Shown here: positions 24,560 through 64,000 of the stretch, in pieces
Numbering within the stretch: the stretch's first letter is position 1
How the letters are laid out: each line of letters opens with the position of its first letter
Origin: Dehalogenimonas etheniformans
GTDB taxonomy: Bacteria > Chloroflexota > Dehalococcoidia > Dehalococcoidales > Dehalococcoidaceae
DNA length: 64,000 bases
NCBI RefSeq assembly: GCF_014672715.2
Contig: NZ_CP058566.2
Span: forward strand, 186,001-250,000
Direction of reading: 5' to 3'
Notes under the pieces: model-generated
The model's database searches: none
Told to the model about the DNA's origin: nothing
What the model saw: the letters and a program-made list of their open reading frames with translations, nothing else
Made by a program: the position numbers and the translations under genes

Positions 24560-24589
24560 TTGATACACCTTTCTTATTGTATTTTTCAT

Positions 24590-40475: not shown

Positions 40476-43400
40476 TTACGGTGTTTGTAAGGGCAATGTG
40501 AAATAGAATGTAGACCCTTTGCCCAATTTGGAGTCAACCCAGATTTTGCCGCCGTGAGCCTCCGTAAGGATACGGCACACCCGAAGTCCCAGGCCGGTAC
40601 CCTGGATGGCTCCTTTGACCTCGAAACCGAGCCTCTCGAAAGGCTGGAACAACCGGTTCAGGTTCTCCTCTGAGATGCCGATGCCTTGATCGGATATGCC
40701 AATGCGGAGGAAATTGCCCTGGATATCGGCAAAGACCCTGACCTCCCCTCCGGCAGGGGAGTATTTAATGGCGTTTTCCACCAGGTTGTAGAAAATGCGC
40801 TCAAGCCGGAGCGGGTCCGCCTGGATTTTGGGCAGACTCTTGGGAAAATCGCACTTCAGGACATGTAGATCGGACTTTCTTTTCATGGACTCGGCAACTT
40901 TGCAGGCGATGTCACCAGCGTCCAGCAGCTTTTTCCGGAGTTCAAGGCGGCGGCTTTGGTGGCGTGAAAGCTCCAACAGGTTGTCCACGATGCTGGCTAG
41001 TATATCGGCGTGGTTGACGGCGTCCAGGAACAGATCGGTCTTAACTTTTTCGGGTATGCCCGGCATGGCGGCAGTAGACAATGCGCCGATAACCACGGTG
41101 ATCGGAGTTTTGAGTTCGTGAGAGATCATGCCAACGAACTCATCCTTCATCCGTTCCGCGTTCTTGCGCTCCGTGATGTCCATAATTGAAGCGATATTAT
41201 AGGCGCTATCGCCGATGGTTACCTTTTCCACCGCCGCCAGCACCGTAATCAGCCGGCCATCTTTTCTTCGCACGGTATGTTCATTCAGGGCCTTGCCGGA
41301 TTCGTCTAGGGCCTTGATCACTGATATGCGCTCGACAGGATTGGTGAACATGTTCAGTTCGAGCGAAGTGTGGCCGATTAATTCATCGCGTGAATACCCG
41401 GTAATTCGCAAGAAAGCTTCGTTTACCTGCGTCCATTGCCCCTCGGGTAAACGGGCTATGGTCATGCCGGCCGGGCTGGCGTAAAAAGATTTAAAGAAAC
41501 GCTCCTCACTTTTCAAGAGAGCTTCCTCAGCGCGTTTGCGTTGAATTGCTACCGACACCTGGTCGGCCACCATGCGCATCATCTCAAGTTCGGTATCGGT
41601 GAATTTCGGCCGGGTCCGGGTGCCAAAGGACAGGGTACCCACGGTTTCATCACCCTGCTGGAGAGGATGGCAGGCATAAACCTGGACACCGAATGAACGG
41701 ACTAAATCCGCGCGGATGTCGGTATTGTGTTGGATATCCTCCGAAATAATTCTACAGCCGTCTCTGGCGACGCAACCGCAAATGGCAGACCCGATTTCCA
41801 GCCAGGTGATATCTTTTGCCACACCTTCCGGAATGCCGGAATAGGCGTTGAGCCGGAGCCTGCCGGATTCAGCATCAACGATGAAATTGAAGAAGACATC
41901 ACAATCCAGGTGCTTCATCACCCGTTCGGCCACCGGTTGGATGATCGTTACCGGGTCGTCGGTTTTAAGCAGCATGGCGTTGGCATCCGCCAGTATTTGG
42001 GCGCGTTCCCGGCTCTTTAAAAGGGAGTCCTCGCTCTGCTTACGGTCGGTAATGTCAGTGATCATGCTCATGGTGCCGGCGAATTTTCCGCCTGAATCAA
42101 ATATGGGACTAGCATTGATGGTCACCCATAATATCGATCCGTTTTTATGTAACAGTTGGTATTCGTAAGACTCGTCGGCTCCATGCTTCCTACGCTCAAT
42201 TCTTGCATCGGACTTTGACCGTTCTTTTTCGGGGACCAGTTCTTGCCATTTTTTAGCCATCATCTCGGCGATGGTATAGCCTAACATATCGGCCATCTTG
42301 TGATTGACATAGGTCGTCCTTCGTTGGTGGTCCACCATCCAGATACCTTCATTTGAGGTTTCGACGATGCCGCGATATTTTTCTTCGCTTTCCCGGAGTG
42401 CATTCTCGATAAGCTTGCGCTCGGTGGTGTCGCGTAAAATTCCCTGCAGTCTGCCGTCGGGCAACTGGCGGCCCACCAGTTCGCCTATGAAAGTCGTCCC
42501 GTCTTTGCGTCGGAATTTCCACTCGTTTCTAAGTATGGCGCCGTTGGCAAGTGAAGAAATTTGGTAGGGGAGACGCGGCAATTCCTCAGGTGCCAGAAGA
42601 TCGATGAGCGTCAAACTGCAAAGTTCCTCCGGGGTGTAGCCGAACATCGCGGCTCCGGCGGCATTTACGTCGACATAGTGCCCATGTGTGTCGGCGACGA
42701 AGATGCCGTCTATCATCTGTTCGACCAGGTTGCGATAACGTGTTTCGCTTTGTTGCAATGCTTCTTCGGCTTTCTTGCTCTCGGTAATATCGCGTACAAT
42801 AGCTACCGACCCAATAATGTTGCCGTGAACATCTTTCACAGGAGCTGCGTTTACCTGGCGGTATCGAAGGTCTCCCGAGGCTGGAGTACGTATAATCTCT
42901 TCCTGCCCTCTGACTGTTTCGCCTTTTAGGGCGCGCAGGGGCGGAGCCTCGTCCACAGGGCGGGGACTACCGTCAGGCCGATACACTTCCAGGCTTTTGG
43001 CTAGAGACTCTACATCTATCTGGTTTTTTCCAGAAATGGGGCCGAACTCGCGGACAGCCGATGGATTCGCCAGTGTGAAATTCTTGTTCATATCGGCAAA
43101 CCAAACCTCGTCTGGAATGCTGTTTACCACAGATGCCAGCCTATCTTTTTCCCGCTGGATGGATTTCATTAACTCGCTCACTTGTGCTTCTGTTTTCTTG
43201 CGATCGGTGATGATTTGGGTCGCCACGGCGATGCCATCCGGTATGGCCGTAACCGTAGCGTGGAACCATTGGTCAACCCCGTCGGCGTTGTAGCGGTCTT
43301 CAAATTGCTCGGGCTTACCGGTCTCAGCAACCCTTTCATAAATTTTGAAAAAATTGGTTTGCGGGAAAGTTGGAAAGATTTCGGTCATGCATCGGCCTAT

Positions 43401-45752
43401 GAGTTCCTCGGGCTTTCGCCCGGTGAGTTTTGCCGATTGAGCATTTTGATAAACGTAAACGAAATCGACAATTTCACCATGTTCGTCCTTGAAGGGTTTG
43501 AGAATGGTGAAGCGATCCAGTGAGTTATCCTGTACCGCCCGGAAACGCTCCTCGCTTTCTTTAAGGGCAATTTCGGCTTTTTTTCGTTTTGTGATATCGG
43601 TGTGCATTCCAAGAAATCCGGTGAGATTGCCGGTATCAGCTTTAAGTGATGCGATGCTGGTAAGGGTCCAAAGCTCCGCTCCGTCTTTCTTGCGGAGCCT
43701 GAGTTCAGATACGAAATTGTTCGGCTGCTTTGTGTTATCTCGGGCATTTTCAGCAGCTTTTTTATCATCGTCAAACATGAAATCGGTAACGCGTTTGCCG
43801 ATTAGTTCTTCCTTGTCATATCCCAATAGTTCCGCCATGCGGTTGTTTACGTATGTGATTGTTCCGTCGGGGGCGTGTGTTGCTATGCCCTCCTGGGCGG
43901 TTTCGATGAGACTGCGGTAACGTTCTTCGCTGCTTCTCAGCGCCTCCTCGGCGTTATTGCGTTCGGTGGCGTCTATACCGACGGATAGAAATCCTTTCAA
44001 TTTGCAGTCCAAGCCGTAAATACCCGAGTTTGTCCATTCCAACCATACCCGGCGTCCATCTTTGCAAATGTTTTCGTTGGCATTTATGTGGAAAGCATCG
44101 GGATTTGTGGCGATTTGGCCGACCATCCTGGCCAGGTCGCGGCCCGTTGTTTCCATTGCCGGAACGATTGTCCCCACAGCCGGCTTGCCTAGCAATTCCT
44201 CCTTGGAGTAGCCGAAGAATTCCAGTGCCCTCGCGTTGGCGAAGGTAATATTACCGGTCAGGTCGAGGCGGAGGATGATGGAGGTGGTATTCTCGACAAC
44301 GCTGCGATAGCTGTCCTCGCTTTCCCTGAGTGCCGCCTCGGCTCGTCCCTTCGATTCCTTGGCGATAATCGTTTCCAGAGCATATGATACGTCGGCTGAC
44401 AACGATTCGAAGAGGGCGGTAGCCTCTGGGTCGAATGCGTCGGATTCCGAACCGTAAACCGTTAGTACTGCTATCGCATTACTATTCACCCGCAACGGGA
44501 ACGCAGCTGAGGAGCCCAAGCCGTATTCTTGGGCTTTAGAACGCCACAACGACATTGTTGGGTTGGACTCGAAATTGACATTGACCACCGACTGGTTATC
44601 CCGGATGGCCGTTCCTGTGGGGCCTTTACTAAGTGCGCCGTGAACCTCAATTCGTATGTCGTGTAGGTAGTTTGTTGCCGACCCCGAGGAAGATTTCGGG
44701 ATAACCTTTTCATCTGCGACTTCACCGATCCACGCAAGCGGGTAATGGCCGTCCTCGGTTATGATGCGGCAGACTTCATCGAACAAATCTTGCTTGTCGG
44801 AGGTCCGCACGATCGTTTCATTGACCTTGCTCAAGACGGAGTGAATCTCGGTCAGCCGTCTGATCCTGATCTCTGCTTGTTTGCGTTCCGTAATGTCGCG
44901 CGCGTAGAGGTTGACATAGCCTTCCTCCGACACCGGGGCGAGAACGAAGTCATAGAAGTGGCCGCCGAACTCAAGTTCAATTTGCTTATGCTTTCCAGCT
45001 GCCAGAGTTTCCGCAATAATTGCCCTGATTTCACCAGATAGGGGATCTCCCCTCGATACTCCCCAACAACTCAAGATATATGAACTCGCTGAATTGGCGT
45101 ACTCGAGCACCCCCTCCGCGGTGACCCGCAATACAGGATTGGGATTCTCCATCGGGAAACGGGATAGGGCCAATATTTCCGATTCAGCTTCGCGATGTTC
45201 CTGAATTTCCTTTTTCAATTTATCGTTGATTTCGTCTGCCTGCCGCCGCGCGTCGATGGCGTCTTCCATCAGGTTGATTGCCGCCCGCCGGGCGTCTCGT
45301 AGAGCGACAACGGCAGAATCCTGTTCTGCTAATTTGCGCCGCTGGAGTTCCCAGCGGGTGACGTCCTCGATTCGGTGCATAATGGCTGTAACTTCCCCCT
45401 CGGCACCGAAAATCGGGGAATTGGTGGTATCCCACCAGCGGGTTTCAAACTGCCCCTTTGCGTCTGGTATTTCATGCTCGGTAATTCCAATTGAATCCGG
45501 AGCACGGAGACCGATCACTCTTTCAAAAGATGAGCGCACTTTGTCGCCGGCTTTACTCGCCGGGTCGGCGATGTTACCGGGGAAAACTTCAAGAAATCCT
45601 TTGCCGACGATGTCATCACGTTTGGTCTGCGTTGCCGAGAGGTATTTATCGGTGACCGCCAGGATGGTGAATTTTGGTGGATCAGCAGCCAGAACCAGGA
45701 AACGGCCGGGTGCAACATCGAACAGTTTTAGGAGGTCGAAGCCGGAGCTCAT
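40476..45752 (-). CDS. Giant soluble multi-PAS/GAF sensor histidine kinase
   Basis: 1758 residues and no membrane segment. I count about nine PAS-type domains and two GAF domains (about residues 300-460 and in the last third), linked by short coiled segments, for example near 140-190. The C-terminus is a complete kinase: H-box MISHELKTP (His near 1545), N-box NLVENAIKYSP, G1 DQGIGI and G2 GTGLGL. PAS and GAF domains bind small ligands or redox cofactors, so it can integrate several signals; ligands cannot be told. No response regulator is adjacent. The ATG overlaps the stop of the membrane PAS gene upstream (TAATG), which implies paired production. Multi-PAS kinases often regulate rdhA operons in this bacterial class. 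Confidence 0.93.
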   Translation of the reverse strand: MSSGFDLLKLFDVAPGRFLVLAADPPKFTILAVTDKYLSATQTKRDDIVGKGFLEVFPGNIADPASKAGDKVRSSFERVIGLRAPDSIGITEHEIPDAKGQFETRWWDTTNSPIFGAEGEVTAIMHRIEDVTRWELQRRKLAEQDSAVVALRDARRAAINLMEDAIDARRQADEINDKLKKEIQEHREAESEILALSRFPMENPNPVLRVTAEGVLEYANSASSYILSCWGVSRGDPLSGEIRAIIAETLAAGKHKQIELEFGGHFYDFVLAPVSEEGYVNLYARDITERKQAEIRIRRLTEIHSVLSKVNETIVRTSDKQDLFDEVCRIITEDGHYPLAWIGEVADEKVIPKSSSGSATNYLHDIRIEVHGALSKGPTGTAIRDNQSVVNVNFESNPTMSLWRSKAQEYGLGSSAAFPLRVNSNAIAVLTVYGSESDAFDPEATALFESLSADVSYALETIIAKESKGRAEAALRESEDSYRSVVENTTSIILRLDLTGNITFANARALEFFGYSKEELLGKPAVGTIVPAMETTGRDLARMVGQIATNPDAFHINANENICKDGRRVWLEWTNSGIYGLDCKLKGFLSVGIDATERNNAEEALRSSEERYRSLIETAQEGIATHAPDGTITYVNNRMAELLGYDKEELIGKRVTDFMFDDDKKAAENARDNTKQPNNFVSELRLRKKDGAELWTLTSIASLKADTGNLTGFLGMHTDITKRKKAEIALKESEERFRAVQDNSLDRFTILKPFKDEHGEIVDFVYVYQNAQSAKLTGRKPEELIGRCMTEIFPTFPQTNFFKIYERVAETGKPEQFEDRYNADGVDQWFHATVTAIPDGIAVATQIITDRKKTEAQVSELMKSIQREKDRLASVVNSIPDEVWFADMNKNFTLANPSAVREFGPISGKNQIDVESLAKSLEVYRPDGSPRPVDEAPPLRALKGETVRGQEEIIRTPASGDLRYRQVNAAPVKDVHGNIIGSVAIVRDITESKKAEEALQQSETRYRNLVEQMIDGIFVADTHGHYVDVNAAGAAMFGYTPEELCSLTLIDLLAPEELPRLPYQISSLANGAILRNEWKFRRKDGTTFIGELVGRQLPDGRLQGILRDTTERKLIENALRESEEKYRGIVETSNEGIWMVDHQRRTTYVNHKMADMLGYTIAEMMAKKWQELVPEKERSKSDARIERRKHGADESYEYQLLHKNGSILWVTINASPIFDSGGKFAGTMSMITDITDRKQSEDSLLKSRERAQILADANAMLLKTDDPVTIIQPVAERVMKHLDCDVFFNFIVDAESGRLRLNAYSGIPEGVAKDITWLEIGSAICGCVARDGCRIISEDIQHNTDIRADLVRSFGVQVYACHPLQQGDETVGTLSFGTRTRPKFTDTELEMMRMVADQVSVAIQRKRAEEALLKSEERFFKSFYASPAGMTIARLPEGQWTQVNEAFLRITGYSRDELIGHTSLELNMFTNPVERISVIKALDESGKALNEHTVRRKDGRLITVLAAVEKVTIGDSAYNIASIMDITERKNAERMKDEFVGMISHELKTPITVVIGALSTAAMPGIPEKVKTDLFLDAVNHADILASIVDNLLELSRHQSRRLELRKKLLDAGDIACKVAESMKRKSDLHVLKCDFPKSLPKIQADPLRLERIFYNLVENAIKYSPAGGEVRVFADIQGNFLRIGISDQGIGISEENLNRLFQPFERLGFEVKGAIQGTGLGLRVCRILTEAHGGKIWVDSKLGKGSTFYFTLPLQTP

Positions 45753-51714: not shown

Positions 51715-53022
51715 TCATTTTGCCGCAACCGGGACAGCGGGGCAGAAGATCGACGGGGTGAAGACGCCGCCCTGCCAGCGGGCATCGGAGGCGAGGGTGA
51801 TATTCGATAATAGCTTGTAAACGTTGCCCGCCACCACAGTGTCCTTTATCCGGCCGACGATTTTGCCGTTTTCAACTTTATAACCCAAAAGAACGTTACC
51901 TGAGAAATCGCCGCCGAGGACGTTGCCTTGCTCGGCGCCCATCAGGTATTCCACGACAAGGCCTTCTTTAATATCGGCTAGCAGTGAATCGAAAGAAACC
52001 GTGCCCGGGTTTACCACCAGTGCGTTAATGGATGGCGATGGCGCCCCGCCGCGGCCACGGCTGCCGTTGCCGGTGCTTTGCTTGCCGGCTTTGGCGGCGG
52101 TCTTCAGGTCGTAGTAGAAATTGGCAACCCGGCCGTCCTCGATAAGAGGCGTGCGACGGCTCGGCACCCCCTCATCGTCGCAGGGGTGAGATGTGGGGCG
52201 CATGGGGATGGTGGCGTCGTCGTAGATCGATAACTTCTTGTCGAAGGCGACCTCACCGAGCCGCTTGGCCAGCGGCGATGCCCCTTCGAGCACCAGTTTG
52301 CCGTTGAAAGCTGAAGCCAGGGCCGGGATGAAAGCGCTGGCGACGCCGGATGGTGTGAAGATAACCGGCAGATCGCCGGATCGGACTGTCACGTTCTTGT
52401 TCGCCCGCTCGAGTTGGGTGAGGGTGTTTTGAATCACTTCGTCCGGATTGTCGATGACGTGGCAATCGTCGAGATCATCGCCCACGAAGAGCATGTCGGT
52501 GCCGCGGACCCACGTGCCCTGGACGCCGAAACCCATGACCGTCTTGCGGTAGCGGGTATCTACACCTCGCGAGTTCATCACCCTGGCGGACACCTGAGCC
52601 GTTTCCACGCCGCCGTCGCACAGCACATCGGGGTACCGGGAGGTGACGGCAGCGATCATCTTCTCGCCGAGTTCCACCATTTTGGAGGTCGGTACCTTGA
52701 GGACGGCTTCGTCGAAGGTGTTGACCTCGGTATAGGCGGTAGACGAAGGGAGTTCGAAATCCACGACCTGGCCGAATTTCGCTGTCTCGACAGCCATTTC
52801 AAGGAGTTTTTCGTTGTCGTCGGGTCGGGTCGAAACGGCAAAGCCCAGCCTGCCGTCCTTGATGATGCGGAGGGCGACGCTGGAACTCTGGCGGGTCTGC
52901 AAAGACTTGAGGCGGTTGGCCTCGAAGTGGACCGGCGTTTCTTCACTGTCGACGATGAACAGGTCGGCCTGCTGGGCGACCCTGGCCGCTTTATCGAGAA
53001 GTTGTTCGAAGGTGTAGTTCAT
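51715..53022 (-). CDS. TldE/PmbA-type metalloprotease homologue subunit
   Basis: 435 residues. It matches the non-catalytic partner (TldE, PmbA) of the TldD/TldE heterodimer, which degrades or matures short peptides. FVLGGDFSGNVLLGYKVENG-like wording appears as GNVLGGDFSGNVLLGYKVENG with a break, and ALVVNPGTVSFDSLLADIKEGLVVEYLMG and STGNGSRGRGG are family segments. It lacks the HExxxH metal motif found in its neighbour. Encoded 144 nt after tldD, with palindromic repeats in the gap. Confidence 0.88.
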   Translation of the reverse strand: MNYTFEQLLDKAARVAQQADLFIVDSEETPVHFEANRLKSLQTRQSSSVALRIIKDGRLGFAVSTRPDDNEKLLEMAVETAKFGQVVDFELPSSTAYTEVNTFDEAVLKVPTSKMVELGEKMIAAVTSRYPDVLCDGGVETAQVSARVMNSRGVDTRYRKTVMGFGVQGTWVRGTDMLFVGDDLDDCHVIDNPDEVIQNTLTQLERANKNVTVRSGDLPVIFTPSGVASAFIPALASAFNGKLVLEGASPLAKRLGEVAFDKKLSIYDDATIPMRPTSHPCDDEGVPSRRTPLIEDGRVANFYYDLKTAAKAGKQSTGNGSRGRGGAPSPSINALVVNPGTVSFDSLLADIKEGLVVEYLMGAEQGNVLGGDFSGNVLLGYKVENGKIVGRIKDTVVAGNVYKLLSNITLASDARWQGGVFTPSIFCPAVPVAAK

Positions 53023-53069
53023 ATCAATACTCTTCCGTTAGTCACTTTTATCGTTAGGAGGAGATTACC

Positions 53070-53159
53070 CCTCTCCTTTAATTCCTCTCCCACAAGGGGC
53101 GAGGAAAACAATTTTACCCTCACCATCTTATCCTCTCCCGCAAGGGGCGAGGGAGGTTG
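53070..53159. repeat. Dispersed intergenic palindromic repeat, copies 2 and 3
   Basis: Two similar units (about 53070-53104 and 53131-53159), each with CTCTCCC-n-GGGGCGAG, lie in the tldD-tldE gap. The first 23 bp equal 2372-2394. Confidence 0.6.
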
Positions 53160-53166
53160 GATGATG

Positions 53167-54543
53167 TTAGCGGCCTCCGATCAGGCATTTTTGAATGCGG
53201 ATGTGTGGCGAGCCGTTGGAGACGGGCAAGGGAGACTGGCCGCCTTTGCCGCAGCCGCCGCCCTGGTTCATGTCGAGGTCATTGCCGATCGCGTCGATGC
53301 GCTTCAACGTCTCGAATACGTTACCGGACAATACCACTGGCCTCAGCAGTTCCTCGACCATACCGTTCCGGATCATGAACGCCTCGCCGGCGGAAAATGT
53401 GAACATCTCCATCGAGGTGGTGCCGCCGTACCAATTGCGGGCATAGATGCCTTCTTTGATATCGGCGATCATGGCATTGAAGGAAACGTCGCGGGGTTCG
53501 ATGAAGGTGTTGCCCATGCGCACGATAGGCGGGTGGCGGAAGGAGATGGCACGGGCGTTGCCGGATGGTTTTTCGCCCATTTTGGCGGCGGTCTCGCGGG
53601 AATGCAGCCGCCCGGTGAGTTTGCCCTCGGTGATGAGATGCACCCGCTGTCCCGGCGTGCCTTCGTCGTCGTAGGCGTAGGAGCCGCGCAGGTTGTCAAG
53701 GGTGGCATCATCGATAATGTTCAAATGCTTGCCGCCGAACTCGCGGCCGAGGACCATGACCTCTTTAAGCTGGGGGTTCTCGTAGATGTGGTCAGCCTCG
53801 GACAGATGACCGAAGGCCTCGTGGACGAAAACGCCGGCCAGCACGGGATCGAGGACGACGGTGTACTCGCCGCCTTTGGCTTGAGGCGCCTTGAGCAAAC
53901 CGACAGCGCGCTCGGCGGTCTCGGTGACCTTGGAATGCAGGCTTTTGATCTCATTGAAATCGCCGCGGGAACCCATCGAGATGCCGGACTGCTGCACTTC
54001 GCCATTGCCGGCGGCCACGGCGTTGACGCGAAGGGTGACGTCGGCGCGTTCCTGGCGGATCAGCGACCCGTCGGAATTGACCAGGATGTAGCGTCGGACG
54101 GAGTCGCCGTAACCGATGGTCGTCGTCTGAAGACCGGAAACGGCCCAAAGAGCCTGGTTGTACTCATCGAGGAGGGCTTTTTTATCCGAAAGGCTGACTC
54201 GCCGGGGGTCGTGTTTGGCGTCGATTTTGACATCGGCATTGGCTTGGGGAACAGGCAAAAACTCGCTCTTTCCCTTGCCGGCCAGCCGGGCCTGCGTCAC
54301 CGCTTGTTCGATGCGTTTTTCGATATTCTCGAGAGAATTGAAGGTGACGAAACCCCAGCCGCCGTTGACCAGGGCGCGCACGTTGCCGCCGGCGTCCCGG
54401 CTGCGGGTGGCGGTCTCGAGTTCACGGCCTCGATAACTGATAGCGGAGGCCTCGGCTTCTTCGAGATGGACCTCGATATGGTCGGCGCGGTAGGCTTTCA
54501 GCTTGCCGGAAAGGTGTTCGGCTATGGCGTCAATGTTAGGCAT
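53167..54543 (-). CDS. tldD: TldD-type metalloprotease, catalytic subunit
   Basis: 458 residues from the ATG at 54543, which is 6 nt from AAGGA; the ATG at 54549 is too close to it. The zinc-binding HEAFGHLSEADH motif (HExxxH) identifies the catalytic chain of the TldD/TldE protease. AYDDEGTPGQRVHLI and the C-terminal GGCGKGGQSPLPVSNGSPHI are further TldD features. The complex cuts short or unfolded peptides threaded through a narrow tunnel. A consensus promoter lies 30 nt upstream. Confidence 0.92.
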   Translation of the reverse strand: MPNIDAIAEHLSGKLKAYRADHIEVHLEEAEASAISYRGRELETATRSRDAGGNVRALVNGGWGFVTFNSLENIEKRIEQAVTQARLAGKGKSEFLPVPQANADVKIDAKHDPRRVSLSDKKALLDEYNQALWAVSGLQTTTIGYGDSVRRYILVNSDGSLIRQERADVTLRVNAVAAGNGEVQQSGISMGSRGDFNEIKSLHSKVTETAERAVGLLKAPQAKGGEYTVVLDPVLAGVFVHEAFGHLSEADHIYENPQLKEVMVLGREFGGKHLNIIDDATLDNLRGSYAYDDEGTPGQRVHLITEGKLTGRLHSRETAAKMGEKPSGNARAISFRHPPIVRMGNTFIEPRDVSFNAMIADIKEGIYARNWYGGTTSMEMFTFSAGEAFMIRNGMVEELLRPVVLSGNVFETLKRIDAIGNDLDMNQGGGCGKGGQSPLPVSNGSPHIRIQKCLIGGR

Positions 54544-54569
54544 ATTCATTCCTTAATGGGGATACTTAA

Positions 54570-55228: not shown

Positions 55229-55724
55229 TTAGATCGAGTCCGCATACTCTTCGATTAAGTCAATAAGTTCAGGTTGGATTTCGTAGAACAACGAGTCCAA
55301 CTCGTCCATTTTGGACTCATAGTCTTTGTCGTCAGAGACTCCTTTTTTTGTATCTCGATAGCACGAGGGAAAATATCGACAAAGGCATCAACTTGCACCA
55401 ATTTAAGCGCAGTTAGAACTTCTTGCTGATCAACATCATTTGCGTTTTTAAAATATTGCTTGTGCCCACCATTCATGACTTCATTATAGTAAAGCAAGGC
55501 GAGTTCACTGGCCTTCCATGCGGAAAGCTTTTGTTTTGATCGTGCGACGCGAGTTTCTGTGCTTTAGGATTAGCTTGAGAGAGGTACTTTTCGTAGCCCG
55601 GGTGGTTCCTCATCAGTTGCCCGAATAGAGCTGCAGTTATGAGGGAGATGATGACACCCGCCAACACCAGCTTTGAACGATTTACCTTCCAGAAGCTCTT
55701 TGAGTTCGCCTCAGGCATGGTCAA
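55229..55724 (-). pseudogene. DMP19-like (DUF4375) membrane protein with two frameshifts
   Basis: Three consecutive frames form one decayed gene. The first (from 55724) has MTMPEANSKSFWKVNRSKL and a membrane helix. The second carries the DMP19-type core LLYYNEVMNGGHKQYFKN. The third supplies the end, MDELDSLFYEIQPELIDL to the stop at 55229. One shift lies near 55545-55570; the other is probably in the A7 run (T7 at 55343-55349). DMP19-like domains are poorly understood. Its start overlaps the end of the ribonucleotide reductase gene by 14 nt, so it was the last gene of the cobamide operon. Confidence 0.75.
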
Positions 55725-57501
55725 TTCTTCTCAAGGAGTTGAAGTAACCACTTACCAGTTCATCTCCTACGCTGCCGTTACAAAACGGCTGATTTGACCT
55801 ACTGCAATCACGATATACAGTAATCCCCTTCAAACCCAGTCGATAAGCTAGATGCAAAATATCAAGCACATCTTGCTGGCTTGCATGCTGAGGAAGGTTG
55901 ACCGTTTTGGAGACGGCAGAATCCGTATGTTCTTGAAATGCCGCCTGCATTCTGACATGCCACTCGGGAGACACGGTATGGGCGTTAATAAATACACCTT
56001 TGAGATCCTCACTGACTTCTGGCATTAAAGGCAGGTCATTGTTGTGAACCAGCCGTTGAACCAGCTGGCAGGAAAATATGCCAGCCTGTTCAAAAGCGTC
56101 TTTAAAATGAGGGTTGATATCGAGAAGATGGTGTTCACCATGAAAAGCGTTCCTAATGAACGCCATGGCGAAAGCAGGCTCAATACCTGAAGTGCAACCT
56201 GCGATCAGTGAAATGGTCCCCGTTGGCGCTATCGTGGTGCAGGTCGCATTCCGCATTGGCTCACCAGTGTCGTTGTATCCCGGGTAAAGTCCTCTTTCTA
56301 AGGCTAGTTCTCTCGAAGTTTCATGGGCTTCTCGATTAATGTATTTCATCACTCGTCTTGCTACATCTAAGGCTTTAGTTGAGTCATATGGAATCCTCAT
56401 CTGCAGCAGCAAGTCGGCAAAACCCATTATTCCCAAGCCGACTTTCCGCGTGCGAAGCGTTGCACGTTCCATCACTGGACTAGGATATCGGGTCAAATCG
56501 ATACAATTATCCAGGAAGCGAATTGCCGATCTGACAACTTTTCCAAGTTTATCAAAATCGATCTCAGCACGGTCGCCATCGATAAAAAGCATACGGCTTA
56601 AGTTTATCGAGCCCAGGTGGCAAAATTCGTTCGGCAGTAGCGGTTGCTCCCCACAACCGCTGACATGATCTAAATCACCGTGTTGAGGCGTCGGATTGTC
56701 GCGGTTCACTCGATCCAAAAAGATAACCCCTGGATCGCCAGTTTTCCAGGAAAGATCAGCTATTTTTTTTAAGACGAAACCAGCATTTAACAAGCCCACT
56801 GTTCTCCCCGAGACTGGATGAACCAGTGGATAGTTCTCTTCTGTCTTGACTCGTTCCATGAAGTCGTCAGTTAGACCGATGCAGGTGAAGAAGTTGGCAA
56901 AGGTGGATGGATCCTGTTTAGCCTGGATAAATTCCATGATATCGGGATGATCCACGCGCAACATTGCCGAGTTGCAGCCGCGACGGATGCCGCCCTGACG
57001 AATATTCAGAGTTGCTCGCGACAATATGTCCAAAAGTCCTAATGGGCCAAAAGCCACACCCTGTCGGTCACCAACACTATCACTTCTTGGGCGGATACTC
57101 GAAAAGTTGAAGCCGATACCGCTGCCGCCTTTATGGACCAGAGCGGCGTACTTCACGGTATCGAACACTGATTCCAGCGTGTCCTGGATCGGCAGGACCA
57201 TCGTTCCGGCCAGTTGGCCGTGCCCGGTTCCGGCATTAAGAAGCGTAGGCGAATTAGGCAAAAATTCAAGACTAGCCATTAGGCGATAAAAATCATCGAT
57301 AACTGCCTCGACATCAGCCTGACGATCATATTTACATTCGATGGAGGCAACGGCTTTGGCGACCCTCCGAAACATGTCATCTGGATTTTCAGAAATTTCG
57401 CCAATCTCGTTTCTTCTCAAATAGCGTTTCTCTAACACAAGTTTTGAGTTCGAAGTAAGTCTGGGCTCGAAGACAATGGGTACGGTAGTATTAATTGCCA
57501 T
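55711..57501 (-). CDS. nrdJ: Divergent adenosylcobalamin-type (class II) ribonucleotide reductase homologue
   Basis: 596 residues from the ATG at 57501 (AAAGG upstream). Class II enzymes make deoxyribonucleotides by using adenosylcobalamin to form a thiyl radical. The fold is clear: FLPNSPTLLNAGT, HKGGSGIGFNFSSIRP, RVDHPDIMEFI and GLKGITVYRDCSR. The thiyl Cys C283 and E285 are kept in SGCGEQPLLP, as is C294. Three normally conserved things are missing: the Asn of NxCxE is S281, the N-terminal redox Cys (usual LxxCF) is T100, and no CxxC tail follows. It ends in VSGYFNSL. It may still reduce ribonucleotides with altered chemistry, or it may do something else. It overlaps the nitrilase-family gene by 11 nt. 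Confidence 0.8.
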   Translation of the reverse strand: MAINTTVPIVFEPRLTSNSKLVLEKRYLRRNEIGEISENPDDMFRRVAKAVASIECKYDRQADVEAVIDDFYRLMASLEFLPNSPTLLNAGTGHGQLAGTMVLPIQDTLESVFDTVKYAALVHKGGSGIGFNFSSIRPRSDSVGDRQGVAFGPLGLLDILSRATLNIRQGGIRRGCNSAMLRVDHPDIMEFIQAKQDPSTFANFFTCIGLTDDFMERVKTEENYPLVHPVSGRTVGLLNAGFVLKKIADLSWKTGDPGVIFLDRVNRDNPTPQHGDLDHVSGCGEQPLLPNEFCHLGSINLSRMLFIDGDRAEIDFDKLGKVVRSAIRFLDNCIDLTRYPSPVMERATLRTRKVGLGIMGFADLLLQMRIPYDSTKALDVARRVMKYINREAHETSRELALERGLYPGYNDTGEPMRNATCTTIAPTGTISLIAGCTSGIEPAFAMAFIRNAFHGEHHLLDINPHFKDAFEQAGIFSCQLVQRLVHNNDLPLMPEVSEDLKGVFINAHTVSPEWHVRMQAAFQEHTDSAVSKTVNLPQHASQQDVLDILHLAYRLGLKGITVYRDCSRSNQPFCNGSVGDELVSGYFNSLRRIDHA

Positions 57502-58276
57502 TATTGATGCCTTTCGATCCAAATAAATGTATTACTTCGAACTGTTCTGAGGTCGGTCGCATCGATGCTAGATCCCAATCAAAAAGTAAAACCGCTGGAT
57601 CGCCCGCATAAGAGAAAACAGGTTGCCCACCTATAATTACTGTGCTCTCGCCCTTGGTCCAATCGACGTTTCGTTCAATACCGGTTCGGTTGCATGCCCA
57701 TAACGGCAAGTCTGTCTCGATTGAAAGTTTTTTCCAATATTCCATCGGTGGGAACCTATGGCCCCAGGCAGCATTGACAATCAGAAGTTCAGCGTCTTTT
57801 TTGGCGAGTGAGACCCCATGTTGAGTATTCAGTGTATCGGCGCAAATCAAGATACCAATTTTTTTGCCTGACACTCTGACGGGCTCAGTCTCCCGACCCG
57901 GAGAAGACCATTTCTCTTCGGCGCCGGGATGGACCTCGATCTTACGGTGTTTACCAGCTATACGTCCTTTGTCGATAGCAAAAACCGTGTTATAACATTT
58001 GCCTGAAGAAGCATCGCGCTCGGGATATGACAAGAAGATTAAAATATCAAACTCCCAGCTTAGAGCCACGATTTTTGTCATCCATTCATCCGGCTGAGGC
58101 ATTATCCAATCGGAACCAACAATATCCTGGAAGAAATAACCGGGGATGCATAGCTCAGGTGTGAGAATTATCGTTGCTCCGAGTCTTGCCACCGACCGTA
58201 TGAGTTCTTCTACCAATATCCTATTGGCTTCGATTGCGCCTGGCTCAGGATCCATATGAAGCATGGCGACTTTCAT
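57491..58276 (-). CDS. Carbon-nitrogen hydrolase (nitrilase family)
   Basis: 261 residues with the full catalytic triad: E41 (LTPELCIPGY), K112 (HRKIEVHPGAEEKW) and C145 (LICADT). Members split amides or nitriles or transfer the acyl group. It sits between cobO and the ribonucleotide reductase homologue and overlaps the latter by 11 nt, so it belongs to the riboswitch-controlled operon. Corrinoids carry many amide groups, so a side-chain amidase role can be imagined, but nothing in the sequence proves a corrinoid substrate. Confidence 0.85.
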   Translation of the reverse strand: MKVAMLHMDPEPGAIEANRILVEELIRSVARLGATIILTPELCIPGYFFQDIVGSDWIMPQPDEWMTKIVALSWEFDILIFLSYPERDASSGKCYNTVFAIDKGRIAGKHRKIEVHPGAEEKWSSPGRETEPVRVSGKKIGILICADTLNTQHGVSLAKKDAELLIVNAAWGHRFPPMEYWKKLSIETDLPLWACNRTGIERNVDWTKGESTVIIGGQPVFSYAGDPAVLLFDWDLASMRPTSEQFEVIHLFGSKGINNGN

Positions 58277-58798
58277 CTAGAAATCGATCCCTTTTCTGGC
58301 AGAAAGTCCCAGATCAAACGGGTGACGAATGTTCTTAAGTTCAGCGACATAATCCGCTTTTTCAATTATTCTATCAGGGGCGTATCTGCCTGTCAGGACC
58401 AGTTCAACGCCCTTTGGTTTGTTATCAATGAGCTTTAAAACCTCACCAATGTCCACGATTTCCCAGGACGTGGCGGTGTTCAATTCGTCCAGGATAATGA
58501 CATCATATTTGCCGCTTTCCATAGCATTTCTTGCGGCTTTGAGAGCCTGTTCGCTCAGGTTCAGGTCCTCCGGGGAAATATCTTCGGGGCTGAGGAAATT
58601 TGGGCGCCCAAACGCTTGAAAATCTATCCCCAACTTCTTCAATGAAGCGTATTCTCCATATTTGTGTGGTCCTTTCATGAAAAAGACGATAAAGCATTTT
58701 AGACCATAACCAGAAGCTCGAAGGGCTGTTCCAAGGGCGGCTGATGTTTTACCCCTTCCATCGCCGGTGAAGACCTGTACTTTGCCTTCTAATTCCAT
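58277..58798 (-). CDS. cobO: Corrinoid adenosyltransferase, CobA/CobO type
   Basis: 173 residues from the ATG at 58798, which has AGAGGA upstream; the frame to 58846 is longer than needed. It transfers the adenosyl group of ATP to reduced corrinoids. The P-loop is GDGRGKTSAALG, and the VIILDELNTATSW segment and the C-terminal HPFDLGLSARKGIDF end are family signatures. It directly follows cbiB and precedes the nitrilase-family gene without a gap, so adenosylation is coupled to cobinamide processing. Confidence 0.94.
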   Translation of the reverse strand: MELEGKVQVFTGDGRGKTSAALGTALRASGYGLKCFIVFFMKGPHKYGEYASLKKLGIDFQAFGRPNFLSPEDISPEDLNLSEQALKAARNAMESGKYDVIILDELNTATSWEIVDIGEVLKLIDNKPKGVELVLTGRYAPDRIIEKADYVAELKNIRHPFDLGLSARKGIDF

Positions 58799-58799
58799 T

Positions 58800-59732
58800 T
58801 CATCCTCTAATAAAAAGAACTGCCGTAAGTACACAAATACTCGCAATTATCCAGAGACTAACACTCCAGATGAACAGCCCAATGGCTCGGTCGATCGCCG
58901 AAAAGTCTGGGTCAATCGGTGGGTCTATGCCGATTGAATAGTGGCCACGTTTGGCAAGTGTTACCCCGAGAGCGCCTGCTGCCGCGGTCATAGGCCAGCC
59001 ACCGTTTGGGCCGGGTGTCAGGGAGTGTTGGGTGAGCATGGTGGTCCATGATTTTCGAAAATCGAGGTTGCGGAATTTAGCTCCTAGCACAATTGCTAGC
59101 CCTGTCAGCCTTGCCGGAACGAAGTTCACTAGGTCATCAAGTCTTGCGGCAAACTTGCCGAGGTATTCGAACTTCCCCCGATATCCGATCATATTGTCCA
59201 GAGTATTGATCACCCTGTGAGCGACTGCTCCGGGAACCCCAAAAATTAGGAAATAAAAGAATGGTGCGACCACAAAGTCGGAGGCATTTTCAGCAATAGA
59301 ACGGACACTTGAAGAGATGATGTCTTTATTAGATATTGAGCCGTTTCCCTTTACAGTATCAAATAGTCCTCTCATGTTTTGAGGAACTGGTCGTCCATTT
59401 TGAATGATCTCCTTGGTACGTCTCGCAACCTTCCATTGTTCCCTAATACAAAAGGTCGATTTGAATATGAGAATACCGACTAGCACAAAAAGCCATCTAT
59501 TCGTATCTTTGCACCAGGTCATCAACCAGAACACCGCTAGACTAATAGTTATTGTCAAAAGGCTTACCAGAGCGCCGTATACTAGTTGCCCGATCGGTTT
59601 TAGCTGGAACCCGGGTTTGATCAAAGCATCAATTAAACGACCAGCCCATACAGTAGGGTGTAGGGAAGTGGGATATTCTCCTATCAATAGGTCAAGAAGA
59701 ACAGCTCCGACCAAAATTAAGATCAGTTCCAA
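58800..59732 (-). CDS. cbiB: Adenosylcobinamide-phosphate synthase
   Basis: 310 residues from a TTG start with AGGA upstream, several membrane helices. CbiB attaches an aminopropanol arm to adenosylcobyric acid. DLLIGEYPTSLHPTVWAGRLID at the start, SSVRSIAENASDFVVAPFFYF in the middle and TPGPNGGWPMTAAAGALGV near the end are diagnostic. With CbiZ it allows salvaged cobinamides to be cut to cobyric acid and rebuilt with the preferred arm. Confidence 0.95.
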   Translation of the reverse strand: MELILILVGAVLLDLLIGEYPTSLHPTVWAGRLIDALIKPGFQLKPIGQLVYGALVSLLTITISLAVFWLMTWCKDTNRWLFVLVGILIFKSTFCIREQWKVARRTKEIIQNGRPVPQNMRGLFDTVKGNGSISNKDIISSSVRSIAENASDFVVAPFFYFLIFGVPGAVAHRVINTLDNMIGYRGKFEYLGKFAARLDDLVNFVPARLTGLAIVLGAKFRNLDFRKSWTTMLTQHSLTPGPNGGWPMTAAAGALGVTLAKRGHYSIGIDPPIDPDFSAIDRAIGLFIWSVSLWIIASICVLTAVLFIRG

Positions 59733-59734
59733 CT

Positions 59735-60493
59735 TTAGAATCCTCTTGAATTCCTGATTGCCTGAATGGTTGAAGAAGTGACTGTTCTTGCCATCATCTC
59801 ACCTAACTTGGTGTGGCCGCCGACGTAGGTGTATTTGTATTCGGTCCCCGAGACGATTGTTATCTGGTCGGTGCCGGTGCCTGTGGCCATGAGATTGGGA
59901 GCGTAAGCGCTCCGGATATCGAGTTCCTGTAGGGCGACATTCTTGGCTTCGGTGATAGTGATAAACGATGATGCTAATGCCGGAGGCTCGAGGATAGCAT
60001 TGGTTAGTACGATATTGTTGATAGTGCCGATCTTCTCGAACTTTCCGTTCCTCTCAATCCCAGAAGCTTTATCTACGCCAACCCTCATTGCATTAGTTTT
60101 AACACCGGCGGTCGTGAAGCATATGACCCAAAATTCGTCGTAAATTTCTTCGTGCCAGGCTACCTTTTCCTGGTTGACGCCTGTAGACATAAAAGCGATG
60201 TCTTCGATTGTCCTACCAAGTTCAGAAAGCACATCTTTCATTATCTGACCATATGTGTCCTGCCAGCTGTGTGATTCATCATGCATAAAGTCCCAAAGAC
60301 CTCTTGGAACGTGGCAATTACAAATTACATCGGTTTCTATATATCCATGCCTTGTGGAGAGAACCGGTTGCTTCCGGGGGAGGGTAATGGCGAGTGTATC
60401 AGTCGGTGTTCCTAAGGCCTGATGGTAGACAACATCTGCGGTTACACCATGAAAAGTACCAATCGGTTTTCTAGTGGTTTTCGGCTCAGCCAA
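59735..60493 (-). CDS. cbiZ: Adenosylcobinamide amidohydrolase
   Basis: 252 residues from a TTG start with AAGGAG upstream. CbiZ removes the nucleotide-loop arm from salvaged cobamides or cobinamides to give cobyric acid, which is then remodelled. Family segments include FMSTGVNQEKVAWHEEIYDE, TTAGVKTNAMRVG, ITEAKNVALQELDIRSAYAP, ATGTGTDQITIVSG and YVGGHTKLGEMMA. It lies between the radical SAM gene and cbiB with gaps of 11 and 2 nt. Remodelling enzymes of this kind suit bacteria whose RdhA need a particular lower ligand. Confidence 0.94.
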   Translation of the reverse strand: MAEPKTTRKPIGTFHGVTADVVYHQALGTPTDTLAITLPRKQPVLSTRHGYIETDVICNCHVPRGLWDFMHDESHSWQDTYGQIMKDVLSELGRTIEDIAFMSTGVNQEKVAWHEEIYDEFWVICFTTAGVKTNAMRVGVDKASGIERNGKFEKIGTINNIVLTNAILEPPALASSFITITEAKNVALQELDIRSAYAPNLMATGTGTDQITIVSGTEYKYTYVGGHTKLGEMMARTVTSSTIQAIRNSRGF

Positions 60494-60504: not shown

Positions 60505-61284
60505 TTAGTAAAGTCTAATGACTTCATACATGAGATCTTTTTTCTCAAGTTTCGATTCGGTTTGTTGCGTACAGGTCACATTTACCAGATGTTTTTTCGC
60601 GACAGTGACCGCTTCGATCATTTCGTCCGGCGTAGCTCGGCGCCAAGGATTCTCAGCACCCGATTCAAAATATGCATCAATGCGATACGGAATGTTCGGA
60701 TCGATCATAGCGACAAATGCTGCAATCTTCTCGGTTTCATCCAAATCGATCATCCCGGGAATAAAGACGCTTTCCGCTCTAAGTTTCTTGCCTTGTTGAT
60801 ATACTTTACAGAAATTACCTAGCACATTTCTGTTTGAATGCTCGGTATAAGCTCGGTACACATCAGGGGTCACCGCCTTCAAGCTCATAACAATTTCATC
60901 AGTGTTTGTTAGATCCGGCAGTTTAACCCCATTGGTATTTAGTGTGATGTAACAACCGAACTCATCTTTCAATGCCTTTGTGATATCAGAATAGGAAGGA
61001 TCTATCGAAGCTTCCTGTCCTTCGAAAAGCACTTCTTTAATTGGGACTTTTTTCAGAATCGTGGCGAGTTCGTCAAGCAACAGGAATTGTTCCGGGGATT
61101 TTGGTTTCGGCAGTTTAGGATCCCGCAAGACGACATCGAGATTCTCCTCCAAAGCCATGCAGTTAATCTCTTTATTGCAAAGACAACCCTGACATTTGAG
61201 GTTACAACCCCAGTGAAAAAGATAAGCCTTTGATATCGCTGGAGCATAAGCCACATGGTAGACCTTTGTTTTTATAGCTACCAT
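60505..61284 (-). CDS. Radical SAM protein, first gene of the B12-regulated operon
   Basis: 259 residues from the ATG at 61284; a longer frame runs back through the riboswitch and is not real. The [4Fe-4S]-SAM site is C27-x3-C31-x2-C34 in FHWGCNLKCQGCLCNK. The rest has the half-barrel look of activase-like radical SAM enzymes (LNTNGV, MSLKAVTPDVYRAY) with no SPASM or B12-binding domain. It is the gene most directly controlled by the cobalamin riboswitch and is followed by cbiZ. Its product could act in corrinoid or lower-ligand chemistry, or activate a partner protein; function unknown. Confidence 0.85.
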   Translation of the reverse strand: MVAIKTKVYHVAYAPAISKAYLFHWGCNLKCQGCLCNKEINCMALEENLDVVLRDPKLPKPKSPEQFLLLDELATILKKVPIKEVLFEGQEASIDPSYSDITKALKDEFGCYITLNTNGVKLPDLTNTDEIVMSLKAVTPDVYRAYTEHSNRNVLGNFCKVYQQGKKLRAESVFIPGMIDLDETEKIAAFVAMIDPNIPYRIDAYFESGAENPWRRATPDEMIEAVTVAKKHLVNVTCTQQTESKLEKKDLMYEVIRLY

Positions 61285-61303
61285 AGTTTCCAAAATTCCT
61301 CCC

Positions 61304-61338
61304 AAAAAGAGAGCCCCCTCCGAAAGCAGGAGGGGGCT
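61304..61338 (-). terminator. Riboswitch terminator hairpin
   Basis: On the minus strand, AGCCCCCTCC and GGAGGGGGCT form a perfect 10-bp stem with a 7-nt loop, then CTCTTTTT. It lies between the cobalamin aptamer and the radical SAM gene, the expected off-state structure when the ligand is bound. Confidence 0.85.
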
Positions 61339-61388
61339 AACAATATTAACACCGTTCCAACCTTCAGTAACCACCAGAAGGTGTAATT

Positions 61389-61502
61389 CCTGAAACCGGC
61401 GCTTTGCTGGCTCGTGGTTTCCCACACACAGTAGGCGGTACTGCGCCGGATTCTCACCGGCTTTCTGTTCCTTTACCCGATTTGATATGCGGGTGTTTCA
61501 GG
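61389..61502 (-). promoter_or_regulatory. Cobalamin riboswitch aptamer
   Basis: On the minus strand the aptamer is closed by CCTGAAAC (61502-61495) with GTTTCAGG (61396-61389). Inside are GCCGGTGAGAATCCGGC and GCAGTACCGCC-TACTG, the conserved B12-box region of cobalamin riboswitches. A strong terminator follows. High intracellular cobamide would stop transcription of the radical SAM-cbiZ-cbiB-cobO-nitrilase-nrdJ operon. Confidence 0.87.
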
Positions 61503-61549: not shown

Positions 61550-62992
61550 TTACCTGTAGAACACATCATTTTCGTAATGAATACCATTAACAGGCAACGG
61601 AGTAGTCCACCATTCTTCCGTTTTATCTTCTGGCCTCAGACCATAACCAAACGACTTATCTGCAGCTATAAAGAAAGAGTTTAGCAAACTGGTTTTGGCG
61701 AGGGTAACTTTGACCATCTCGTGGACAGTCGAAAGAGCATCTTTGCTGAAGACACATGTCGCTTGGCACATGCCACAATAGGTGTCGCTTTCCTGCCAAT
61801 ACCTGTTGCACTTGTGATGGTTAAAGTACCAGGTTTTAAGACCTGGGTTATTGAACAATTCCGGTTTGACAAGATCATAAGCCTGAGTGATCTCCCACGA
61901 TGGCTCAGTTTCACCCTGAAGCGCCTTCGAAGGGCATACATCTGAACATTTTTTGCAGGTATAGCAGAATTTTCTAGATCCGAAATCAACCGGTTTCATC
62001 GGAGCAATCGGAATATCAACAATGTTCATAGTCGATTGACGTATCATCGGACCCCACTCGGGAGTAATCAAGTGCTGCATGCGGCCTTGTTCACCTAGAC
62101 CGGACATCACGCCCCATCCTACAATGGGTCCGTTGCCCTGGATATTCTGCCTTATCGTTGTGTAACCAAGTACCTGAAGGAAACACATCAAACGCCATTG
62201 GGTAATATCGCAGTTGTCATAAGCCGTTCCGGCGCCACCATCGGAAAGGTAGCCTACTCGGGCGGAAGCATCAAGCGATTGCCGAATTGTGTGTACTACT
62301 GCATAGCGTGAAGAACTGGGAACTATTACCTTCTTTGCTGTGGCATCATAAGTCGGTTTCGGAGCTTCTTCAAAAACGATATCCGGATTCGGAGCTTGCG
62401 GCATTTGTCCCCAAATCATTTTTTTTGTAGTTTCATTAATTTCAGCAAAGCCAACAGACGAGCCCCCGCAATAACGTAGTAACTGGGTTAACATGATAGA
62501 CGCTTCTTCCGGGGTACCAGTCCATTTTGGGACACCAAGTACTGTCGGAGTCGGGATTAACGGCCATCCTTCCACCATCTCTTTTACGAGGGTGGCTTGA
62601 GACATGCGCCAGCGGACACCACCCCAACCTGCCAGCTTCATGGCATTGTCGCGAAGAGTAAAACCAGGGACGTCGTTTTGGGTCATGTTCTTTTGGTAGT
62701 CGGCTTTTGTCTTAGCTTGGATGGCAGCGGCCTCTTCTTTACTGAGATGAGAAGCGAAGTTGTTATATTTACCTTTCTGGAAGCGCTGCATTTTCTGCCA
62801 ATCGATTTCAACGGTTGGTTCATCGACTTCGGTAACAAACCATGGATTTTTGTATATGTTGCCGGATGACAATAATTCATCAAGGTCATGAAATTTGGGT
62901 TGGATCGCTGCTGCCGCCCCAATACCGGCGGTCGCGATCCCAATGGCTTTCATGAAATCACGCCGAGACAATGTCGAATGTGCTCTTACCAC
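61550..62992 (-). CDS. rdhA: Reductive dehalogenase catalytic subunit (third copy)
   Basis: 480 residues from a GTG start 7 nt after AAAGGAG. The Tat leader is MVRAHSTLSRRDFMKAIG with R10-R11. The first ferredoxin motif is CYTCKKCSDVCP; the second is C-x10-CGMCQATC. The sequence differs clearly from the tandem pair (for example ENPWFVTE-like text is YKNPWFVTEVDEPTVEIDW here), so it is not part of that duplication. It follows an OmpR-type regulator and directly precedes the cobalamin riboswitch and salvage operon, placing enzyme and cofactor supply side by side. No rdhB is seen. Substrate unknown. Confidence 0.95.
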   Translation of the reverse strand: MVRAHSTLSRRDFMKAIGIATAGIGAAAAIQPKFHDLDELLSSGNIYKNPWFVTEVDEPTVEIDWQKMQRFQKGKYNNFASHLSKEEAAAIQAKTKADYQKNMTQNDVPGFTLRDNAMKLAGWGGVRWRMSQATLVKEMVEGWPLIPTPTVLGVPKWTGTPEEASIMLTQLLRYCGGSSVGFAEINETTKKMIWGQMPQAPNPDIVFEEAPKPTYDATAKKVIVPSSSRYAVVHTIRQSLDASARVGYLSDGGAGTAYDNCDITQWRLMCFLQVLGYTTIRQNIQGNGPIVGWGVMSGLGEQGRMQHLITPEWGPMIRQSTMNIVDIPIAPMKPVDFGSRKFCYTCKKCSDVCPSKALQGETEPSWEITQAYDLVKPELFNNPGLKTWYFNHHKCNRYWQESDTYCGMCQATCVFSKDALSTVHEMVKVTLAKTSLLNSFFIAADKSFGYGLRPEDKTEEWWTTPLPVNGIHYENDVFYR

Positions 62993-63175: not shown

Positions 63176-63892
63176 TTATGGATTTTGGTGATCGGAGGAG
63201 TTGGATATAAAAACCCTATACATGTAGCCGATGCCGGGGACGGTCTCAATAATTCTCGGATTAGCAGGATCCTTCTCAATCTTCGCACGGAGCTTGCCGA
63301 TAAAGACGTGAAGGTACTGTCGTTCGTTGATATACTCGTTACCCCAGACCTTAGCCAGTAGGTTATCTTGAGTGATTACCTTATCTGCATTGAACACCAG
63401 TTCTTTTAACAGCATATACTCAGTGGGAGTGAGTCGAATTTCATTACTTTCGACGTAAATGCGCCTCTTTGCTGGGTCAAGTCTAACCGGCCCAGCCTGC
63501 ACCGGTAATGATGGGGCAGCATCTAATGCCTTGAACCGTCGTAGTACTGCATGGACCCTGGCGATGAGTTCTTCGATACCGAATGGTTTTGTGAGGTAGT
63601 CATCAGCGCCGATGTTGAGGCAAGTGACTTTATCGCTCAATTCCCCCCGGGCTGAGAGGACGAGAATCGGAACTTGGGTCCATTTACGCAGGTTACGAAT
63701 AACATCATATCCATCGATGCCTGGCATCATTATGTCCAGAATAACCAGTTCAGGTAGTTCCTCCTCCATAACAATTAGCGCTTGGGAGCCGTTTGAAGCA
63801 GTCAAGACGTCCCAACCTTCCATCTTAAGGTTGGCGCGCAGGAACTTAATGATCACTGGGTCATCATCAACGATTAAAACTTTAGTGCCCAT
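63176..63892 (-). CDS. OmpR/PhoB-family response regulator
   Basis: 238 residues from the ATG at 63892 ([12 protein letters not shown]), preceded by AGGTG; the frame extending to 63985 adds unlikely residues. The receiver has the acidic pocket D9-D11, the phosphorylated D53 in [12 protein letters not shown] and K102 in DDYLTKPFG. The C-terminal winged helix includes [20 protein letters not shown] and a final [28 protein letters not shown] wing. It probably controls the rdhA downstream; the cognate kinase would lie beyond the right edge or elsewhere, for example the orphan multi-PAS kinase (speculative). Confidence 0.92.
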
Positions 63893-64000
63893 CAATCGAA
63901 GCACCTGAAGGGATCCTAAACCAAAAGGTGGAGCCATGACCCAGTTCCGAACAATAACCAATTGAACCTTGATGGGCTTCAACAATAGCGCGGCAGATCG

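Follow-up and report, generated by a model that had tools for sequence, protein, structure and literature searches.

Short class II ribonucleotide reductase homologues of Dehalococcoidales carry an altered active site, lie mostly beside reductive dehalogenase and cobamide genes, and may serve cobamide supply

Since cells depend on it, the active site of working class I and class II ribonucleotide reductases (RNRs) is nearly fixed. An NPCXE finger loop occurs in 3,175 of 3,347 class II sequences (PMC9669993); class III enzymes have MGCR or MCCR as their finger loop (PMC9669993) and keep the beta-A cysteine (PMC4493059, PMC9669993). The PNSP apical loop is the diphosphate-binding loop of NDP-type RNRs (PMC8365446). 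Proteins of the DUF71-B12 group have been linked to B12 salvage in a study that remarked on five DUF71 proteins in Dehalococcoides CBDB1 and makes no mention of an RNR-like enzyme (PMC3541065). An expansion of the RNR gene family was recently reported in Dehalogenimonas strain NSZ-14, which belongs to a group of dehalogenating bacteria most of which are unable to synthesize cobamides (PMC13390414, 2026). The same paper labels "RNR" genes in rdh clusters and dcpA islands, assigns them to the color class of DNA replication-associated genes and reads them as such, and we found in it no mention of an altered active site or a separate subfamily. Our literature search, which covered few subscription-journal papers, returned no report of an altered active site in short NrdJ proteins and found nothing on RNR homologues in nucleoside biosynthesis.

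We analyzed a window of 64,000 nucleotides (G000:C1:186001-250000) in the single-contig, 2,068,322-bp genome of Dehalogenimonas etheniformans (G000). As listed in Table 1, the window contains a gene for a short NrdJ homologue (P0001), whose reading frame is uninterrupted and whose residue numbering from the ATG agrees with that of the preliminary description of the locus. In profile searches, the protein scored 592 bits against TIGR02504 (cut-off, 400) and 381 bits against the RNR barrel PF02867, and reached 772 bits against the closest NCBIfam equivalog, below the required 961. The structure model called for in the preliminary description, built with AlphaFold2 (pLDDT 89.4, pTM 0.91), matched T. 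maritima NrdJ (3o0q) over almost the whole length (Z 47.6, rmsd 1.8 A, 543 residues aligned); as modeled, the window protein has the class II RNR (NrdJ) fold. It resembles the dimeric NDP-type class II NrdJ (T. maritima; TIGR02504; PRK08665) in its ten-stranded barrel, thiyl Cys, finger-loop Glu, beta-F Cys, PNSP loop, and loop-2 Gln and Arg. Unlike canonical NrdJ, its subclade has replaced the Asn-Pro of NPCGE, lost the beta-A Cys, exchanged the Ala after loop 2 for Cys, and has no zinc-finger or CxxC tail. In the alignment to the T. maritima chain, Thr100 occupies the position of Cys134, Ser281-Gly-Cys283-Gly-Glu285 that of Asn320-Pro-Cys322-Gly-Glu324, and Cys294 that of Cys333, which bears out the earlier reading that C283, E285, and C294 are present, with Ser281 in place of Asn and Thr100 in place of the redox Cys. 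The SGCGE sequence deviates from the class II NPCXE finger loop. The C-terminus, GITVYRDCSRSNQPFCNGSVGDELVSGYFNSLRRIDHA, has no CxxC, as had also been described, and no zinc finger; two cysteines close to the end, C566 and C574, might conceivably act as an atypical tail pair. Among the Pfam-scanned neighbors in the window, no zinc-finger NrdJb gene of a split class II enzyme (NrdJa/NrdJb) was found.

Table 1. Features of the short nrdJ gene and its neighborhood in the window
Feature	Position in window	Strand	Remark or basis
Short NrdJ homologue, 596 aa (P0001)	55711..57501	minus	ATG at 57501, stop ends at 55711
PNSP diphosphate-binding apical loop, residues 82-85	57247..57258	minus	Kept; alignment; PMC8365446
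Thr100 codon	57202..57204	minus	Beta-A redox Cys here in 103/103 canonical NrdJ; alignment
Loop 2, QGGIRRGC, residues 169-176	56974..56997	minus	Includes family-specific Cys176; alignment
Finger loop, SGCGE, residues 281-285	56647..56661	minus	Canonical NPCGE; thiyl Cys283 kept; alignment
Cys294 codon, beta-F redox Cys	56620..56622	minus	Retained here, missing in L009 and L051; alignment
Nitrilase-like carbon-nitrogen hydrolase	57491..58276	minus	PF00795; overlaps start of nrdJ-like gene
CobO/BtuR corrinoid adenosyltransferase	58277..58846	minus	PF02572
CbiB/CobD adenosylcobinamide-phosphate synthase	58800..59732	minus	PF03186; TIGR00380 over cut-off
CbiZ adenosylcobinamide amidohydrolase	59735..60493	minus	PF01955
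Radical-SAM protein, CNLKCQGC	60505..61425	minus	Profile search; resembles glycyl-radical-enzyme activases; under all NCBIfam cut-offs
Reductive dehalogenase RdhA	61550..62992	minus	TIGR02486 over cut-off; twin-arginine signal
OmpR-type response regulator	63176..63985	minus	Profile search

The genes of Table 1 lie on one strand in the transcription order response regulator, rdhA, radical SAM, cbiZ, cbiB, cobO, nitrilase-like, and nrdJ-like, with intergenic gaps of -47 to 124 bp from rdhA onward. Same-strand CbiZ, CbiB, and CobO/BtuR together with a reductive dehalogenase confirm the cobamide-salvage context claimed earlier. In this respect the short nrdJ loci, surrounded by DUF71, CbiZ, CbiB, CobO, and BtuF-like genes, resemble the DUF71-B12/CbiZ salvage sets (PMC3541065); the link of an RNR-like enzyme to such genes is reported here. 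Rfam gave no match in the window, which hence holds no known cobalamin riboswitch, and none was found in seven related loci. Elsewhere in the window and on the same strand are a downstream gene pair that by eye resembles TldE/PmbA and TldD (51715-54549), two adjacent rdhA genes (23015-26095) that encode twin-arginine signals and are not part of the cobamide run, and a 1758-aa open frame that by eye has many PAS-like repeats and a histidine-kinase-like end (40476-45752).

The genome encodes ten full-length NrdJ homologues, one canonical and nine short (594 to 606 aa), and yields 50 rdhA hits above the threshold of that family. The canonical protein (G000:C1:1646080-1648881, 933 aa), with SACF, NPCGE, C294, and a cysteine-rich tail, is canonical in all tested respects; it answers the earlier question of a second NrdJ and rules out the window gene as the sole RNR of the genome. 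Neither a class I beta subunit nor NrdD was found in this genome. The searched genomes of Dehalogenimonas or Dehalococcoides-like members of this family (G000 to G010) each have one long NrdJ and one to nine short forms. Two NrdJ-like gene fragments in D. etheniformans (G000:C1:459073-459462, L013, and 1599510-1599719, L019) look like remnants of further copies, and L019 closely follows a group of one radical-SAM and four rdhA genes.

We compared 40 distinct short sequences from Dehalococcoidales with 103 canonical NrdJ sequences, most of them from other phyla. Position 281 is Asn in all 103 canonical sequences and in none of the short ones (Thr in 25, Ser in 10, Asp in 4, and Cys in 1), and position 176, Ala in the 103 canonical proteins, is Cys in all 40; Cys283 is invariant in the short forms and likewise Cys in the canonical 103. 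Because every short form has lost Asn281 and gained Cys176 and none of the canonical set has, the altered residues of the window protein reflect more than chance. Furthermore, Gly replaces Pro at position 282 (35/40), Arg replaces Lys at 168 (31/40), Val or Ile replaces Thr at 280 (34/40), and Asn205 has given way, mostly to Tyr; the remaining canonical residues that were lost are grouped around loops 1 and 2, position 205, and the finger loop. Retention is otherwise broad, with 130 of 198 strongly conserved canonical positions unchanged in 90% or more of the short forms and the phosphate loop and the loop-2 Gln and Arg invariant among 25 aligned members. One subclade (L058, L076, L078, and L081) has the finger loop DPCGG and has lost E285. 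When columns 100, 176, 281, 282, 285, and 294 were left out, the 40 short sequences made up one side of a branch (SH-aLRT, 99), so that an RNR tree of the kind proposed in the preliminary description separates them from canonical NrdJ as a single clade. Values of dN/dS between short pairs were 0.04 to 0.11, indicating purifying selection, the window gene standing outside this test, as it has no close orthologue and its synonymous sites are saturated. These values rule out decaying or degenerate copies for the short family, and the window reading frame is intact.

The beta-A cysteine, Cys100, is kept in 37 of the 40 short proteins and the beta-F cysteine, Cys294, in 30. Only the window protein (Thr), L009, and L051 (both Ser) lack Cys100; these three form one clade (support, 100), and all carry the rSAM-cbiZ-cbiB-cobO-nitrilase run. 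L009 and L051, the nearest relatives of the window protein, are without both redox cysteines, yet Cys283 and Cys176 are kept. It had been suggested that C176 and C207 compensate for the missing cysteine. C176 is universal in the short family, including the 37 members with an intact C100, and is therefore not a replacement for it, which rules out C176 as a general substitute. C207 occurs only in the three short members without C100 and may compensate for its loss, although these carriers form one clade and may represent one event.

In D. etheniformans, eight of the nine short nrdJ genes have an rdhA no more than 8 kb away, where 1.9 would be expected (circular-shift P of about 0.0006). At 32 of the 40 distinct short loci, the nrdJ gene belongs to a same-strand run that also holds RdhA, radical-SAM, DUF71, or cobamide genes; the runs contain radical SAM at 18 loci, RdhA at 16, DUF71 at 14, CbiB at 8, CbiZ at 7, and CobO at 6. 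A radical-SAM gene is directly 5' of the short gene at eleven distinct loci, at several as a two-gene unit, and both G000 and G003 carry two copies of the full run rSAM-cbiZ-cbiB-cobO-nitrilase-nrdJ. In Dehalococcoides (L077, L079, and L080) one short copy is accompanied by a radical-SAM gene only, near hydrogenase-type genes. Some short copies sit on genomic islands. By coordinates, L071 (G004) and L062 (G007) fall inside the dcpA islands of PMC13390414 (NSZ-14, 1,384,297-1,407,259, and IP3-3, 1,612,218-1,635,409, respectively, on the presumed strain identity), 211 bp before a dehalogenase gene; on these coordinates, the "RNR" of that paper and the two short nrdJ are the same genes. A 14.6-kb block with a short nrdJ, rdhA, and response regulators (L010, 1734-16361; L066) is shared by G000 and G005, two Dehalogenimonas species, at 98.3% identity and represents a recent transfer of an nrdJ-rdhA unit. 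An rdhA was present in 16 of 17 genomes with a short gene versus 7 of 22 without one, a comparison that is confounded by kinship and carries little weight.

Three further observations concern these neighborhoods. Several DUF71 (PF01902-type) paralogues occur in one genome and repeatedly adjoin short nrdJ (L011, L012, L014, L015, and L016). The short-nrdJ operon at L078 includes a gene (4915-5634) for a CbiE-like corrin methyltransferase (70.8 bits, below the cut-off of 92.9), which is odd for a corrinoid auxotroph, presumed here to be D. mccartyi 195. At L014, a c-di-GMP-II riboswitch (4194-4276, minus strand; 64.1 bits) lies about 3.8 kb from the short nrdJ.

The loop-2 pattern QGG[VI]RxGC, searched at the DNA level in samples of the class and the phylum totaling about 650 Chloroflexota genomes, identified NrdJ-like genes in Dehalococcoidales only, and the 18 other checkable pattern loci contained no NrdJ. 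A scan of named genomes returned at least 80 canonical NrdJ proteins, with no short form among the matches listed. The short clade is likely confined to Dehalococcoidales.

The nine short relatives in D. etheniformans combine a rebuilt active site with, in most cases, B12-recycling and dehalogenase neighbors and therefore probably carry out a different radical reaction. Our main reading, to which we assign a probability of roughly 45%, is that a Dehalococcoidales subfamily of the class II RNR fold has stopped DNA-precursor synthesis and would now act as a cobamide-dependent thiyl-radical enzyme serving cobamide supply or remodeling for reductive dehalogenases. The earlier idea of a cobamide-dependent radical enzyme with a new job gains support from the canonical NrdJ in the genome, the absence of class I and III RNRs there, and the expanded subfamily tied to dehalogenase and cobamide genes. 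The window subclade has kept the fold, thiyl Cys283, Glu285, and the diphosphate loop, dismantled the Asn, the beta-A Cys, and the usual re-reducing tail, and acquired Cys176 after loop 2. Adenosylcobalamin, or less likely the neighboring radical-SAM protein, would generate a thiyl radical on Cys283, which would then abstract a hydrogen from a nucleotide-like, phosphate-bearing substrate; the presence of CobO in several runs fits adenosylcobalamin as the putative cofactor. With the radical Cys and the PNSP loop kept but the Asn, the beta-A Cys, and the usual tail dismantled, the enzyme is most simply read as abstracting hydrogen from a phosphate-bearing substrate and not carrying out the customary two-electron reduction. 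A reaction that lacks the standard dithiol pair might be redox-neutral or use another reductant, and its product would serve the cobamide of the co-encoded dehalogenase. A role in cobamide supply or remodeling is the most economical guess because cbiZ, cbiB, cobO, and DUF71 genes are neighbors in hosts mostly unable to make cobamides. In a more specific form, which we consider unlikely as it stands, the short family would chemically alter the cobamide, for example at its nucleotide loop or a nucleotide-activated precursor, and so fit imported cobamides to particular dehalogenases, having evolved from a class II RNR and expanded with the dehalogenases.

Several points weigh against a new function. 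The genomic context is guilt by association, with one Dehalococcoides copy accompanied by no more than a radical-SAM gene; no cobalamin riboswitch turned up in the window; C566 and C574 might serve the window protein as a tail pair; and across the family as a whole the losses are confined to Asn281 and the usual tail, so that members with C100 and C294 may have RNR activity. The short forms could thus be working RNRs with an unusual reductant, in which Ser or Thr at 281 stands in for Asn, Cys176, Cys207, Cys294, the tail cysteines C566 and C574, or an external reductant replaces the usual pair, and the copies supply dNTPs or ride on mobile islands. Such an explanation draws on the fold and its broadly retained conserved positions, the TIGR02504 score, the intact PNSP loop, the frequency of C100 and C294, the presence of C207 exactly where C100 is lost, and the island location of some copies, and it is implied by the DNA-replication label in PMC13390414. 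Nonetheless, we regard it as unlikely: every complete genome searched in the two genera has a canonical NrdJ, Asn281 is missing throughout, L009 and L051 have neither redox cysteine, the neighbors are dehalogenase and cobamide genes rather than nucleotide genes, and nine extra RNR genes are hard to explain in a slow-growing bacterium with a 2-Mb genome.

A rather improbable alternative is that the short forms are non-catalytic or weakly catalytic proteins that bind cobamides or nucleotides, as a sensor, carrier, or loading factor for the neighboring dehalogenase. The close link to rdhA and two-component regulators, the loss of the catalytic Glu285 in one subclade, and the variable redox Cys are consistent with it; however, Cys283 is invariant while adjacent residues changed, purifying selection is strong, and the phosphate loop and the loop-2 Gln and Arg are invariant, as expected of an enzyme. 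It is highly improbable that the radical-SAM protein, rather than adenosylcobalamin, makes the thiyl radical, with the pair working like NrdG and NrdD, for although an activase-like gene precedes the short gene at the eleven loci mentioned above, many short genes stand without a radical-SAM gene next to them, the best match among solved structures is the B12-dependent T. maritima enzyme, and the C-terminal part has no conserved Gly that could carry a glycyl radical. Indeed, the tails of the 25 aligned short members share no invariant Gly, and a glycyl-radical enzyme is ruled out for this reason. The short loci resemble class III NrdD/NrdG in having a radical-SAM gene beside a barrel thiyl-radical enzyme with its thiyl Cys on the finger loop; unlike NrdD, the window protein has no glycyl-radical domain or conserved Gly, carries Thr100 for the beta-A Cys and SGCGE as its finger loop, and is clearly class II in sequence. 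The proposal that it uses another reductant as class III enzymes do fits poorly with the missing beta-A Cys and C-terminal Gly.

With a retained radical Cys, rebuilt substrate and reductant sites, and up to nine copies per genome, the short clade amounts to a natural experiment on the chemistry that the RNR barrel can perform beyond ribonucleotide reduction. The annotation of these genes as RNR and DNA replication (PMC13390414) may hide a step in cobamide supply to dehalogenases, and such a step, if true, would bear on how chlorinated pollutants are degraded.
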